A stretch of DNA of 64,000 bases from Desulfolutivibrio sulfodismutans DSM 3696 (GTDB lineage Bacteria > Desulfobacterota > Desulfovibrionia > Desulfovibrionales > Desulfovibrionaceae). A model generated the notes under the pieces. The model made no database searches. It saw nothing but the letters and a program-made list of their open reading frames with translations, and was not told the DNA's origin. The position numbers and the translations under genes were made by a program. The stretch spans positions 1,467,501-1,531,500 of the forward strand of contig NZ_CP045504.1 in the NCBI RefSeq assembly GCF_013376455.1, written 5' to 3'. Position 1 is the first letter of the stretch. Each line of letters starts with the position of its first letter. Of the stretch, positions 49,335-54,436 are shown in pieces.

Positions 49335-49538
49335 GGAGTGTGTCCTCGCTTTTATACATGGTCGAAAACATCCCGTGGCTTGGCAACAACCGGGAAAAAA
49401 GTCAACGGGCGGCCAGGGCCCGGGCCCCGGAGAAGGACGCGCCGCGTTTCCCCGGACTTTTGACAGCCCGCCCGGTTTCTGCTTAAACGTCTTGTTCTTT
49501 TGCATTTCGCACCACATCCCCATTTTGGAGGAATACCC

Positions 49539-50228
49539 ATGGCCGATCAGACGAAAAAACCCGCCGCGCCGCACGCCGAGGACAAGGCCGCCCACGCGGC
49601 TGAAGACCACGGTCTTCTGGCCCGGATTGTCCTCGCCTACTGGAAGCCCGCCGCCATCGCCGCCATCGTGGCCCTGGCAGGGTCCGGAGGCATGGCCCTG
49701 TATGAAAAATACCAGGCCTCGCGCATCGCCGAGGTCACCGAAAAGATCGGAAAGATCGCGGCTGAAAAAACAGGCCCGGATCGCCTGGCCGACCTCAAGG
49801 CCCTGCTGGCCGAGGCCCCCTCGGGCGCCAGGGAAGGCGTGCTTCTGGAGATGGCCAAGGCCGCCCAGGACGCAGGCGACCTGCCCGCTGCGGCCCTGGC
49901 CTGGGAGGATCTGTCCAAATCCTCCGACGGCGCGGTGCGCTCCCTGGCGGAACTGGGACAGGCGGCTATCCTGACCAAGGCCGGGGACACGGCCAAGGCC
50001 TTGCAGATTCTGGAAAAAGCCCGGGGCACGGCCTCAAAGCCGTTTCTTTTGGCCATTGACCGCCAGATGGCGGTGACCGCCGAGGCCGCAGGCAACCTCA
50101 AGGCGGCGCTGACGGGATATGAGCGCATGAAGTCGGAAAGCTCCATGCAGAACATGTCGTATATCGATTCCAAGATCGAGGCCCTGAAGGCCAAGATTGA
50201 GGCGGGCGGACAAAAAAGCAACGGTTAG
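49539..50228 (+). CDS. YfgM-like membrane TPR protein
   Basis: A 229-residue protein with an acidic, Ala-rich N-terminus, one membrane helix at about 36-55 (PAAIAAIVALAGSGGMALYE) and a TPR-like periplasmic part. The topology matches YfgM, a SecYEG accessory factor, though sequence evidence is weak. TTGGAGGAA precedes the ATG at 49539. It lies 39 nt upstream of iorA and could be co-transcribed with it. Confidence 0.8.
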   Translation: MADQTKKPAAPHAEDKAAHAAEDHGLLARIVLAYWKPAAIAAIVALAGSGGMALYEKYQASRIAEVTEKIGKIAAEKTGPDRLADLKALLAEAPSGAREGVLLEMAKAAQDAGDLPAAALAWEDLSKSSDGAVRSLAELGQAAILTKAGDTAKALQILEKARGTASKPFLLAIDRQMAVTAEAAGNLKAALTGYERMKSESSMQNMSYIDSKIEALKAKIEAGGQKSNG

Positions 50229-50267
50229 GCCACCGGGTTTTCCGGAACCCGACGGGAGTTTGCATTT

Positions 50268-52106
50268 ATGGGCAAGGAGCTTTTGGACCGGGAAGGCGGG
50301 GCGAGGCATTTTCTGCTCGGCAACGAGGCCATCGTCCGGGGGGCGCTTGAGGCAGGGGTGGACATGGTGACCTGTTATCCGGGCACCCCCTCCTCGGAGG
50401 TTCCGGACACCTTTTTCCGGCTCTCGCCGCAGGGACCGTATCGTTTCGAATATTCCGTCAACGAGAAGGTGGCCCTGGAGGTCGGGGCCGGAGCCAGCCT
50501 GGCCGGGGCCAGGACGCTTGTGACCATGAAGCACGTAGGCGTCAACGTGGCCGCCGATCCCCTGCTGACCCTGGCCTACGTGGGGTCGCCCGGGGGATTC
50601 GTGCTGCTTTCGGCCGACGATCCGGGCTGCCATTCCTCGCAAAACGAGCAGGACAACCGCTGGTACGCCCGGCTGGCCGGGCTGCCCTGCATCGAGCCAT
50701 GTACGGCCCAGGAATGCAAGGACTTCACCCGGGCGGCCATGGAGTTGTCGCGACAGTTCGGCCATCCGGTCCTTGTGCGCACCACCACGCGGGTCAACCA
50801 CGTCCGCGGCCCGGTGACCTTTGCGGCCCTGCCCGAAAAGGCCCCGTCCGCGCCCTTCGTAAAAAATCCCTTCCGCTACGTGCCGCTTCCGGCCTCGGCC
50901 CGGGTTATGCGCCTGGCGCTCCTGGACAAGCTCAAGGCCATGGCCGCAGCCGCCGACGCCTCGCCCCTAAACGTCGTCTCCGGGCAGGGCCGCGTGGGAT
51001 TCGTGGCCTCGGGCATCTGCCGGGCCTACCTGCATGACGCGCTGTTCGAGACCGGGCTTTCCGGCCAGGTCAAGGTTTTAGACCTGGGCTTTTCCTCACC
51101 CCTGCCGGCCAACCTCATCGCCGATTTCGCCGCCGGACTGGACACCGTGGTGGTCCTGGAAGAGGTGGACCCCATTGTGGAAAACGAGATCCGGGCTCTG
51201 TTCCAACGCCGGGGCCTAACGGCTGCGGTCGTGGGCAAGGGGGAACACCTGCCGCGCTTCGGCGAATATTCCCCGGAGATCGTGGAGGCGGCGGTGCGCG
51301 CCGTATGCGGCCTGCCCGCGCGGGAAAAATCCCTGTACGCCGTACCGGCCGAACTGCCCAAACGCCCGCCAAACATGTGCGCCGGATGTCCGCATCGGGC
51401 CTCGTACCACGCCGTGCGCAAGGTCTTTGGGGACGAACCGGTCTATTCCTCGGACATCGGCTGCTACACCTTGGGCATCCAGCCGCCCCTGTCGGCCGCC
51501 GACTTCCTTTTCTGCATGGGCTCCTCGGTCAGCGCCGGAAGCGGCTTCGCCGCCGCCTCGGGACGCCCGGTGGTGGCCTTTATCGGCGACTCCACCTTTT
51601 TCCATTCCGGAATCACCGGGCTCATCAACGCCGTGGCCAATGGCCACGAGCTTTTGCTGGTGATCCTGGACAACCGCACCACGGGCATGACCGGGCACCA
51701 GCCGCATCCGGGCGTGGACCACACCATCTTCGGGGAATTCTCCTCCAAGGTGGACCTGGCCGGACTGGTGGCGGCCTGCGGCGTGACGCCCGTGCGGGTC
51801 AATCCCTTCAACCACAAAGCCACACTGGCGGCGCTGGCGGAACTCAAGGGACAGTCCGGGGTCCGGGTGCTCATCGCCGAGGCCCCCTGCCCCATCCACG
51901 CCCGCAAGGTCAAGATCGCGCGCAAGACCCCGCCCGCCCAGGTGGCTGGCGATCCCGGCAAGTGTCTGGCCTGCCGGGACGAACTGGCCTGTCCGGCCTT
52001 CTCCATGGTGGAGGGGGTCTTCGCCATCAATGCCGAGGCCTGTTCGGGCTGCATGTACTGCGTGCAGCTTTCCCCGGAAATCAAAGCCCGCAAGAAGGAC
52101 GGATAA
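50268..52106 (+). CDS. iorA: Indolepyruvate:ferredoxin oxidoreductase, alpha subunit
   Basis: IorA oxidises aryl pyruvates to aryl-acetyl-CoA with ferredoxin. The 612-residue product has the pyrimidine-binding domain (GVDMVTCYPGTPSSEVPD), the TPP motif FIGDSTFFHSGITGLINAV-type with ...NGHELLLVILDNRTTGMTG, and a C-terminal iron-sulfur part. That part has six cysteines (CLACRDELACP and CSGCMYCVQLSP); the usual final Cys-Pro is Ser-Pro. It ends directly before iorB. Confidence 0.93.
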   Translation: MGKELLDREGGARHFLLGNEAIVRGALEAGVDMVTCYPGTPSSEVPDTFFRLSPQGPYRFEYSVNEKVALEVGAGASLAGARTLVTMKHVGVNVAADPLLTLAYVGSPGGFVLLSADDPGCHSSQNEQDNRWYARLAGLPCIEPCTAQECKDFTRAAMELSRQFGHPVLVRTTTRVNHVRGPVTFAALPEKAPSAPFVKNPFRYVPLPASARVMRLALLDKLKAMAAAADASPLNVVSGQGRVGFVASGICRAYLHDALFETGLSGQVKVLDLGFSSPLPANLIADFAAGLDTVVVLEEVDPIVENEIRALFQRRGLTAAVVGKGEHLPRFGEYSPEIVEAAVRAVCGLPAREKSLYAVPAELPKRPPNMCAGCPHRASYHAVRKVFGDEPVYSSDIGCYTLGIQPPLSAADFLFCMGSSVSAGSGFAAASGRPVVAFIGDSTFFHSGITGLINAVANGHELLLVILDNRTTGMTGHQPHPGVDHTIFGEFSSKVDLAGLVAACGVTPVRVNPFNHKATLAALAELKGQSGVRVLIAEAPCPIHARKVKIARKTPPAQVAGDPGKCLACRDELACPAFSMVEGVFAINAEACSGCMYCVQLSPEIKARKKDG

Positions 52107-52697
52107 ATGCAGCGCCATCGCATTTTTCTCACCGGCGTCGGCGGCCAGGGAACCCTCACCTCCACCCGCCTTCTGGCCCTGGCGGCCATGGACGCGGGGC
52201 TTGACGTGGTCTCGGGCGAGATCCACGGCATGGCCCAGCGCGGCGGCGTGGTGGAGTCCACGGTGCTTCTGGGCGGTTTCACAAGCCCCAAGATCAGCCC
52301 GGGGGAGGCCGACATCCTGCTCGGCTTCGAGCCCCTGGAGGCCCAGCGGGCCTTGTCCATGCTGCTCCAGGGCGGATTTGCGGCCGTCAGCACCGACCCC
52401 ATCCCCCCCTTGAGCTCGGCCCTGGAGCGGGAGCCCTATCCGTCCCTGGAGGCCATCTGCGCGCCCATCCGGGAGTGGGCCGGGAAGGCGGTCTTCGTCC
52501 CCTGCCACGCCCTGGGGGTCAAGGCGGGCAACCCGCAAAGCGCCAACACCGCGCTTTTGGGCGCGGCCTGCGCCGCCGGGGCCTTTCCCTTCGGCATGGA
52601 GGCCATGGAAGCGGCCATCAAAAAGCATCTGCCGCCCAAGATCGTGGACGTCAACCTTGTCGCCTTGCGGCTGGGGGCGGACGCCCTCGGCGGTTGA
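52107..52697 (+). CDS. iorB: Indolepyruvate:ferredoxin oxidoreductase, beta subunit
   Basis: The 196-residue gamma-type subunit begins MQRHRIFLTGVGGQGTLTST, with the GVGGQG motif of the CoA-side domain of 2-oxoacid oxidoreductases, and has IHGMAQRGGVVESTVLLG. The ATG follows the iorA stop codon with no gap, so translation is coupled. A regulator gene follows 18 nt later. Confidence 0.94.
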   Translation: MQRHRIFLTGVGGQGTLTSTRLLALAAMDAGLDVVSGEIHGMAQRGGVVESTVLLGGFTSPKISPGEADILLGFEPLEAQRALSMLLQGGFAAVSTDPIPPLSSALEREPYPSLEAICAPIREWAGKAVFVPCHALGVKAGNPQSANTALLGAACAAGAFPFGMEAMEAAIKKHLPPKIVDVNLVALRLGADALGG

Positions 52698-52715: not shown

Positions 52716-54389
52716 ATGAACGGACTCTCATCCTTTGAAAGCGGCTGGCCCATCTTCCTGACCACGCTCACACGCATCATTCAGGAAACAGGCCCCAACA
52801 TCCCCGTGCGCCAGGGGTTGGAAAACACCCTGGACATCCTGGTGGGCAACCTGGGATACCGCCGGGTGCATATCGAACTGTTCGACCTGCCCCGAAAAAA
52901 CACCAAAATCAGCCTGGACCGGGGCCGCGACCCGGGGATTTCCCACCTCTTCGGCCCCGGCCCCCTGGCCACGGGCCAGGTCATGGCCACCCGGCGCACC
53001 CTGGTCATCGGTGACGTCAAGGACCACCCCGACTTCATCGGACGCCCCCCCGAGGAACTGGAAACCCTGTCGTTTTTGTGCGTTCCCATTCATGCCCCCA
53101 AACCCGTCCCCGCCAATCACCAAGGCCCGGCGGCGTCCTCCGAGTCCCTGCCCCCTTCCGGCCCGGACACCCCCCCGGGACCGCCCGCGCCGACCGACGC
53201 GTCCGGCCAGGACGACGCCTTCGGGCAGGACCAGGGCTCCGTGCTCGGCACGCTCAGCGTGGACATCCCCAAGGCTCCGCCGGTTTTTCTGGAGGCCCAC
53301 TGCGACTTTTTAAGCGTGGTGGCGACGCTGGTGGGCAGCCTGTCCATCCGGCTGCGCGACGAGCTCACCCGCCCCCGCCGCCGCCTGCCCCAGCCCCAGC
53401 CCGACACCACCCCCCTGCCGCCCCAGGGCGTCCAGCCCCCCGTGGCCGTGTCCAAGAGCATGCGCCTGGTGCTCAGGCAGGTGGCCCAGGCCGCCTCGTC
53501 CTCCACCCCGGTCCTGTTCCGGGGCGAAGAGGGCACGGGCAAGGAATTTCTGGCCGAATTGCTGCACGCCCAAAGCCCCCGCCGCCTGCGGCCGATTCTC
53601 AGGCTGTCCTGCGGCACGGACCCCGAGGAAGTGGTGGAGGAGACCCTGTTCGGGGTGCAAAAGGGCGAGGTCTCCGAGTCCACCCGCTCCAAACGCGGCA
53701 TTTTCGAACTGGCCCAGGGCGGCACGGTCTTTTTGGACGACATCGAGGAGTTGTCGCCGGTGGCCCAGAAGGCGGTGCTCCGGGTCATCCACGAGGGCAC
53801 GGTGCAGCGCAAGGGCGGGGTCGAGCCGGTGCAGGTGGACGTGCGCATCGTGGCCGCCACCAGCGCCTCCCTGGGCGAGCGCATGGCCAAGGGCGAATTT
53901 CTGGAAGACCTGTATTACGGCTTAAGCGTCCTGCCCATCTACGTCCCGGCCCTGCGCGACCGGGCCGGGGACATCCTGCCCCTGGCCGAACACTTCCTGG
54001 GCGAATATTCCAAAAAGCTCGGCAAACCCCTGCGCCGCATCTCCACCCCGGCTATCGACCTCTTAAACCAGTACCACTGGCCGGGTAACGCCCGGGAGTT
54101 GGCCAGCTGCATGGAGCGCGCGGCCATGCTGTGCGACGAGGGCGTGGTGCGCACCTACCACCTTCCCCCCACCCTGCAGACCGCCGAAAGCTCCAACACC
54201 GGCCCCAGCCTGTCCTTTGGCGAGGCCGTGGCCAAGTTCGAGCAGGAACTTTTAATCGAGGCCCTCAAAAAGGCCCGGGGCAACATGTTCCAGGCGGCCC
54301 GCGACCTGCGCGAAAGCTACCGGGTGGTCAACTACAAGGTCAAAAAATACGGCATAGACCCCAAGCGATTCACCATGGGCCGCCGGTGA
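52716..54389 (+). CDS. GAF-AAA+-Fis regulator with degenerate sigma54 activator motifs
   Basis: A 557-residue NtrC/NifA-type protein: a GAF-like domain (about 15-215) split by a Pro/Ser-rich insertion (about 126-172), an AAA+ domain (about 243-470) and a Fis-type HTH (about 515-545, GNMFQAARDLRESYRVVNYK). Walker A is G270EEGTGKE. The GAFTGA loop is GEVSES (317-322), Walker B ends DD (341-342) not DE, and the two PspF-type arginines are L396 and G402. It lies 18 nt after iorB, so it may regulate iorAB, probably without sigma54. Confidence 0.9.
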   Translation: MNGLSSFESGWPIFLTTLTRIIQETGPNIPVRQGLENTLDILVGNLGYRRVHIELFDLPRKNTKISLDRGRDPGISHLFGPGPLATGQVMATRRTLVIGDVKDHPDFIGRPPEELETLSFLCVPIHAPKPVPANHQGPAASSESLPPSGPDTPPGPPAPTDASGQDDAFGQDQGSVLGTLSVDIPKAPPVFLEAHCDFLSVVATLVGSLSIRLRDELTRPRRRLPQPQPDTTPLPPQGVQPPVAVSKSMRLVLRQVAQAASSSTPVLFRGEEGTGKEFLAELLHAQSPRRLRPILRLSCGTDPEEVVEETLFGVQKGEVSESTRSKRGIFELAQGGTVFLDDIEELSPVAQKAVLRVIHEGTVQRKGGVEPVQVDVRIVAATSASLGERMAKGEFLEDLYYGLSVLPIYVPALRDRAGDILPLAEHFLGEYSKKLGKPLRRISTPAIDLLNQYHWPGNARELASCMERAAMLCDEGVVRTYHLPPTLQTAESSNTGPSLSFGEAVAKFEQELLIEALKKARGNMFQAARDLRESYRVVNYKVKKYGIDPKRFTMGRR

Positions 54390-54397
54390 TACGGCCC

Positions 54398-54436
54398 AAA
54401 GGCCCCGGGAGCTTCGCCTGCCCGGGGCCTTTTCGT
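54398..54436 (+). terminator. Rho-independent terminator after the regulator
   Basis: A perfect 12-bp stem (AAAGGCCCCGGG, 54398-54409, with CCCGGGGCCTTT, 54421-54432) with an 11-nt loop is followed by TCGTTT. It ends the iorAB-regulator unit. Confidence 0.9.

Follow-up and report, generated by a model that had tools for sequence, protein, structure and literature searches.

The closest described relative of the regulator studied here is DVU1949 of D. vulgaris, a one-component enhancer-binding protein (EBP) that has a GAFTGA motif and is encoded in an operon with DVU1952, joined by iorAB in four genomes (PMC4641369). Table 1 of that study lists nine operons for DVU1949 under nitrogen metabolism and transport, and its text reports that Kazakov et al. 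found no conserved sigma54 promoter near the DVU1949 gene.

EBPs that lack GAFTGA and act with sigma70 are already known from the text of earlier work. TyrR, DhaR and HupR are given as sigma70-dependent, a small deletion in the L1 loop is described for TyrR, DhaR and VpsR, and some 110 homologues are counted whose GAFTGA deviates in minor ways, frequently by a Thr to Pro change (PMC3162934). NtrC of R. capsulatus is said to need ATP binding and not hydrolysis, growth of Caulobacter on ammonium to depend on the Walker A and B residues of its NtrC, and VpsR (which appears as VspR in print) to have no ATP requirement (PMC10274813). Here we describe a DVU1949-type protein in which the sigma54-remodelling site has been dismantled, and compare it with these systems.

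Results

The iorAB operon and its regulator gene

The window, a stretch of 64,000 nucleotides from Desulfolutivibrio sulfodismutans DSM 3696, encodes a GAF-AAA+-Fis protein, P0001, downstream of iorAB (Table 1). The 18-nt distance to iorAB noted in the original prediction is borne out, with iorB ending at 52697 and the ORF starting at 52716, and a terminator-like hairpin 3´ of the gene suggests that it is the last of the operon. The order nadD/proA, TPR-type gene, iorA, iorB, EBP gene is widespread among homologue loci; 46 of the 61 loci, with the window counted among the 61, yielded both iorA and iorB. Conserved operon order and tree position place P0001 in the DVU1949 orthologue group, a link drawn through the gene order in the text of PMC4641369 and not through DVU1949's own sequence.

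P0001 matches the PF00158 AAA+ profile over residues 245-408 at 162.5 bits (cut-off 20.2) and the Fis helix-turn-helix (HTH) profile at 29.5 bits (cut-off 22). The best NCBIfam match is NifA (TIGR01817), and NifA identity was rejected because 300.2 bits fall below the cut-off of 528.85. In the AlphaFold model (pLDDT 77.8, pTM 0.46) the AAA+ fold is retained, with NtrC1, NtrX and ZraR as top Foldseek matches. A Pro/Ser-rich insertion in the GAF domain, as originally noticed, is present; it is modelled at low confidence and varies in length within the genus, being long in two of three genomes and 24-26 residues shorter in the third.

Table 1. Features of the operon and of P0001 (positions in the window)
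Feature	Position	Strand	Basis or remark
Sigma70-like operon promoter TTGACA, 17 nt, TTAAAC (TG one base before)	49460..49488	+	TTTTGACA kept 14/14
TPR-type gene, operon's first gene	49539..50228	+	DVU1952 counterpart by position
iorA	50268..52106	+	TIGR03336 677.6 bits, above its 650.9 cut-off
iorB	52107..52697	+	TIGR03334 163.1 bits, below its 205.8 cut-off
P0001, GAF-AAA+-Fis regulator with dismantled sigma54-remodelling site	52716..54389	+	557 aa; DVU1949 orthologue
GAF domain, residues 35-207	52818..53336	+	PF01590
Pro/Ser/Ala-rich insertion in GAF, about residues 129-173	53100..53234	+	length variable, low model confidence
P-loop GEEGTGKE, residues 270-277	53523..53546	+	Lys276 14/14, S272E 14/14
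Switch-asparagine position, Ser298	53607..53609	+	N in 42/42 intact; role from text of PMC4132715
L1 loop GEVSES (317-322) where GAFTGA expected	53664..53681	+	alignment
Walker B DD (341-342), catalytic Glu substituted	53736..53741	+	alignment
L396, PspF R162 position	53901..53903	+	alignment
G402, PspF R168 / NtrC1 R299 position	53919..53921	+	alignment
AAA+ lid, residues 414-494	53955..54197	+	PF25601
Fis-type HTH, residues 505-545, strongly conserved	54228..54350	+	PF02954; E533 14/14
Terminator-like hairpin and T-rich tail 3´ of P0001 gene	54398..54432	+	core listed 54411-54428, wider span read from sequence

Changes in the AAA+ domain

Alignment upheld the changes first read from the sequence. 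GEVSES occupies the exact L1 place of GAFTGA with no indel (KGEVSES against KGAFTGA in the NifA, ZraR and NtrC1 alignment). In Walker B, D341 is the normal Asp and the change is E342D (FLDD against FLDE). L396 and G402 fall at the positions of PspF R162 and R168, six residues apart as in FREDLYYR (FLEDLYYGL in P0001, FREDLYYRL otherwise). Two further changes were found: serine at the switch-Asn position, and glutamate (Glu272) in place of the P-loop Ser.

When P0001 was aligned with EBPs from 30 fetched loci of its own genome, a set that leaves aside six lower-scoring PF00158 matches, it was the only one of the 31 without the Walker B Glu and the only one with neither R-finger arginine. All 30 others keep DE and the second R-finger Arg, while their first R-finger position is Arg in 28, His in one and Lys in one. 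The uniqueness of P0001 in its combined loss of Walker B and R fingers argues that the set of changes did not arise by chance. The switch position is looser, with Asp instead of Asn in 8 of the 30, so that Asn is not universal there. In one of these EBPs (L023) GAFTGA is strongly altered, to GVATGV, with DE and the R fingers kept; D. vulgaris DVUA0100, for which GVATGV is reported as well, was judged active (text of PMC4641369).

Distribution in lineage 1 and among intact homologues

A homologue search over 150 genomes of the order led to 60 fetched loci from 59 genomes. Degenerate proteins like P0001 are encoded at 14 loci in four genera, here called lineage 1: three in the window's genus g1 (the window included), seven in g6, three in g19 and one in g17. 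Genus g6 is Solidesulfovibrio by its named records (S. magneticus, S. alcoholivorans, S. aerotolerans), which are in the same degenerate state. These 14 were compared with 42 intact homologues, a comparison that sets apart five of the 61 rows (L109-L113; three second-set and two distant intact ones).

The contrast is complete at each motif. GAFTGA, its Phe, the Walker B Glu, the switch Asn, and the arginines at the R162 and at the R168 positions are each present in 0/14 lineage-1 proteins and 42/42 intact ones. The L1 loop of lineage 1 reads GEVSES, GEASES, GERSKA, GEQSKA, GEASKS, GEAAGS or GKAPGA, with Ser at the GAFTGA Thr position in 12 of 14, and the switch position is S, G, A or V. The Walker A Lys (K276) is retained in all 14, as is an open frame across the four genera. 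Derived residues are common to the lineage: S272E in every member, and A318E, E342D and R396L in 13 of 14 each. The loss of sigma54 contact proposed at the outset is supported; it is multi-site and clade-wide, and takes in the machinery that couples ATP to L1.

Lineage 1 is recovered as a single clade by the EBP tree (100/98; changed columns left in) and by an independent IorA+IorB tree (98/96), and the six carriers with proA group less firmly in a ProA tree (93/89). Erosion of the ATPase site is continuing within the lineage, as in L064 (G101), whose Walker B reads LDAIEAL and which has Ser in the first R-finger position. In the turn before the recognition helix, residue 533 (window 54312-54314) is Glu in all 14 and mostly V, A or I in intact homologues, which may reflect a shift of DNA specificity.

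Constraint by domain

Since dS was saturated in several intact pairs, rates were compared as domain dN over iorA dN, given as medians for groups chosen by the analyst; the pairs, 19 from 11 of the 14 degenerate and 14 from 16 of the 42 intact sequences, are not independent of one another. For the AAA+ core the ratio is 1.70 (0.97-2.3) in degenerate pairs versus 0.35 (0.07-1.12) in intact ones, so that relative to IorA the core evolves about five times faster, with overlapping ranges. The GAF domain has the same rate in both (1.26 and 1.21), the lid gives 0.76 versus 0.46, and the HTH, at 0.40 versus 0.18, is still slow. Across the 19 within-genus lineage-1 pairs, HTH dN/dS is 0 to 0.13.

Sites at least 95% conserved in the intact rows tell the same story: 23 are lost and 37 kept in AAA+, against 6 lost and 56 kept elsewhere (Fisher p 0.0002), and in the HTH none is lost; the count omits intermediate sites, and Fisher tests here and below treat related genomes as separate. 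The DNA-binding domain of P0001 is under strong constraint. A relaxed motor joined to a constrained DNA-binding end is the pattern that would be expected of a plain transcription factor. Loss of sigma54 as the cause was rejected, as rpoN was found in 15 of 15 genomes checked.

The operon promoter and the ancestral-type operator

The conserved promoter of the operon sits upstream of the TPR-type gene (Table 1) and not near 50230, where binding had been anticipated; it is absent from the list of a generic promoter scan. The -35 and spacer of the operon promoter are covered in most intact relatives by a palindrome close to TTGACA-N4-TGTCAA. Scored with a hand-built matrix of 18 sites read in intact operons, 24 of the 27 operons of intact type reach at least 13, a partly circular figure given those 18 sites; among intact operons outside the matrix 4/7 pass, versus 0/14 in lineage 1 (best score 3.3). 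Unsupervised palindrome EM yielded only GC-rich background. With the intact-type operator missing upstream of their own operon, autoregulation is unsupported for lineage-1 proteins. Five Solidesulfovibrio loci (L063-L067) share a conserved stretch, near GAAACTCGTACGCGC, upstream of the TPR-type gene, placed after the -10 and before the ribosome-binding site.

Candidate targets

The operator motif is enriched genome-wide in six lineage-1 genomes, with 8-16 sites versus 1-3 in a reversed control. Its assignment to P0001 rests on co-occurrence and on a motif that Kazakov et al. assign before the same operon (text of PMC4641369), matched here by its place and not by its logo. The window's genome has 15 sites versus 3 in the reversed control, several of them inside ORFs; by visual inspection of unannotated ORFs, only the glnA site clearly precedes a nitrogen gene. 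The motif upstream of glnA scores 17.1 (L168), 12.2 (L170) and 20.0 (L167) in the three genomes of the window's genus and is missing (scores at most 5.9) at four Solidesulfovibrio and two g19 loci; these counts exclude L152, L155, L160, L163 and L171, whose upstream regions end at an internal ATG.

One type of amtB (start MNAADT or similar) has a strong sigma54 site in 0 of 10 lineage-1 genomes versus 6 of 8 intact ones (Fisher p 0.0015), at a threshold of 0.90 set after the scores had been seen and with 8 of 10 intact genomes compared, since among the amtB loci covered (at most 30) none of this type came from G116 or G121. The same amtB type carries TTGCAAAA(A/G)TGTNAA overlapping a -35-like hexamer in 9/10 lineage-1 genomes, and a variant of it in 1/8 intact ones. 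The 15-mer TTGCAAAAATGTCAA from this amtB, sought with at most one mismatch in seven genomes, occurs once in four (the window's included), twice in two and in one not at all. At the other amtB of the window's genome, a sigma54-like site scoring 0.82 is found at -124 and recurs in the two remaining genomes of the genus; ACAAAAATGTA-like repeats lie upstream of it. We regard the amtB and glnA sites as candidate targets, leads rather than proof of P0001 binding.

A second set of degenerate homologues

Seventeen named records (12 Mailhella, HAN036, UBA8003, a Bilophila and two others) make up a second set, which resembles P0001 in family, in keeping the HTH (NYKVKKY in 17/17) and in lacking, in all 17, both the Walker B Glu and the Arg of the first R-finger (R162) position. 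It differs from P0001 in that L1 is GAFLGA-, GAFPGA-, GAFAGA- or GAFHGA-like and not wholly replaced, although the GAFTGA Thr is gone in every record, and in that the second R-finger Arg is retained in 16/17. An upstream palindrome sets the two apart as well: in 11 of 16 loci (L267 excluded because its upstream sequence is too short) a TTGACA-N4-TGTCAA-like palindrome covers a -35-like TTGACA some 900 nt upstream of the EBP gene, 0/30 shuffles reach its score, and those inspected have TTGACA followed by TAGCGT or TAGCCT at 17 nt.

A more divergent, additional degenerate case, in genome G141, has a palindrome before the operon that scores 18.5. DNA binding appears to have outlived sigma54 function in the second set and G141, to judge from these palindromes. 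In the IorA+IorB tree G141 stands beside the Nitratidesulfovibrio-like intact G121 and G082, and a single origin with lineage 1, examined for G141 only, was rejected when that grouping was enforced (AU test, p-AU 0.00012). The sigma54 machinery has hence been lost at least twice, with independence shown for one member, G141. The EBP tree unites G104, G119 and G141 where long branches meet, and the ProA tree joins G104 and G141 (99/97) and puts G119, on a long branch, beside the intact G130 (91/97); by this separation the second set may contain more than one loss. These trees take in neither the Bilophila nor the SUG1291 records.

In G104 the proA-linked place holds a degenerate protein (L109, contig C5; GAFPGA, Walker B DA), and a homologue with GAFTGA is encoded elsewhere (L096, contig C45); the pair could represent a division of labour.

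Discussion

Our preferred reading, which we consider fairly probable as a whole, is that P0001 is a sigma54-independent and probably catalytically inactive descendant of a DVU1949-type EBP that acts at sigma70 promoters. Its parts differ in firmness. That the protein is inactive with sigma54 is, on the evidence of the motifs, close to certain, and it is very likely a functional DNA-binding regulator rather than a gene in decay. Action at sigma70 promoters is likely, and nitrogen genes are slightly favoured over aryl metabolism as the targets; for occlusion as the main mode of action we see even chances.

On this reading P0001 would no longer remodel sigma54 polymerase, with contact loop, catalytic Glu, switch Asn and both trans arginines gone across the sampled clade. 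A GAF-controlled dimer would bind operators where nitrogen-assimilation genes have sigma70 promoters, repressing the housekeeping polymerase or, less likely, helping it. Once sigma54 was no longer a client the entire ATP-to-L1 relay would be dispensable, which would explain why its parts were lost together. In PspF, E108, N64 and R162' of the next subunit are in direct contact and the switch is tied to the L1 loop (text of PMC4132715), so that these residues may be seen as one linked unit lost together; the counterpart of PspF R168 in NtrC1 is R299, a residue in contact with the gamma-phosphate (text of PMC7175178). Single changes weigh less. PspF E108D still engages polymerase with ATP and has partial function (PMC4132715), so that DD alone would not inactivate and the argument rests on the whole set. 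By analogy, two things would count against sigma54 inactivity: the Thr to Ser change of 12/14 proteins is of a type tolerated as GAFSGA (text of PMC4641369), and DVUA0100, with its GVATGV, was judged active.

A faster AAA+ core than in intact homologues and the loss of several motifs could also point to a functionless pseudogene under erosion, an account we find very improbable given frames that are open in all 14 orthologues over four genera, the low HTH dN/dS of the 19 pairs, the invariant P-loop Lys and the new residues that the lineage shares. The original prediction had drawn on TyrR, and an aryl-metabolite sensor of that kind controlling iorAB, with which the gene forms a conserved operon, has little in its favour. 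P0001 scores 219.6 bits against a TyrR family cut-off of 576, no ACT domain is among its Pfam matches and its L1 is substituted at full length; intact orthologues are equally linked to iorAB, the regulon predicted for the D. vulgaris member is one of nitrogen (text of PMC4641369), and the operator that most intact relatives have at the operon is missing in 14/14 of the lineage.

Two further accounts keep a working regulator. By analogy with R. capsulatus NtrC, which needs ATP binding without hydrolysis (text of PMC10274813), P0001 could be an ATP-binding activator of sigma70 polymerase; GEEGTGKE is retained throughout lineage 1, and the P-loop may still hold nucleotide. That binding is putative, drawn from the motif, while the operator-like palindromes of relatives overlap the -35 instead of sitting upstream and the R fingers are lost, one of which contacts the gamma-phosphate in NtrC1 (text of PMC7175178); we consider this account rather unlikely. 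Also unlikely, in our estimate, is an anti-activator that occupies upstream activating sites common with an intact NtrC-type EBP and so damps sigma54 activation. Such a role would suit the operon DVU1231-DVU1233, listed under both DVU1949 and DVU3220 (Table 1 of PMC4641369), the sigma54-like site and upstream repeats at the other amtB, and a cell that has sigma54 and 30 other aligned EBPs with DE; binding of P0001 to these sites is putative, and E533 in its HTH suggests that specificity may have shifted.

Beyond the sigma70-acting descendant that we prefer, we tentatively suggest a history that we hold to be possible, and less than probable. The ancestral nitrogen EBP could have been bifunctional, an ATP-driven sigma54 activator and, at its own sigma70 promoter, a simple binder of an operator covering the -35. 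With this preadaptation, two or more lineages could have shed the sigma54 machinery and kept sigma54 itself, one retaining the operator and that of the window rewiring its targets (for example amtB, from a sigma54 to a sigma70 promoter). If true, an AAA+ motor would have been turned into a plain transcription factor repeatedly, and in a way that can be traced.

The finding bears on annotation. PF00158 is named for sigma54, and such domain sets are read as sigma54-dependent activators; predicted sigma54 regulons of Solidesulfovibrio and its relatives may include targets that cannot be activated via sigma54. The family also offers a natural series of intact, partly and fully dismantled proteins, mostly in one gene neighbourhood and with sigma54 present, from which the order of loss of glutamate switch, R fingers and L1 can be worked out and the fate of target promoters followed.

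Comparison with known systems

We found no earlier report of this loss in open full texts, supplements aside; the list of defective GAFTGA motifs in PMC3162934 could include a member. PMC4641369 was the only open-text match for DVU1949, or for magneticus with GAFTGA, and both of its main-text mentions of D. magneticus are without the loss.

P0001 shares with DVU1949, as described in the text of that study, its place and an operon with a DVU1952-type gene (and iorAB in some genomes), and intact Nitratidesulfovibrio orthologues have most of its recognition region; DVU1949 keeps GAFTGA, whereas P0001 is without GAFTGA, catalytic Glu, switch Asn, R fingers and the upstream operon operator. The NtrC proteins of R. 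capsulatus and Caulobacter are likewise GAFTGA-less nitrogen regulators of EBP type, reported at sigma70 promoters in the text of PMC10274813, but they are response regulators with L1 deleted, while P0001 has a one-component GAF architecture, an L1 that is substituted but of full length, and a catalytic site that has been dismantled. TyrR, DhaR, HupR and VpsR resemble it as EBP descendants shown or inferred to be sigma54-independent (text of PMC3162934); TyrR, DhaR and VpsR differ by their small L1 deletion, and P0001 lies far below the TyrR family score. P0001 is set apart from these proteins by its GAF one-component architecture and an L1 substituted over its full length, by the dismantling of both switch and R fingers, and by the parallel case that its own family provides.
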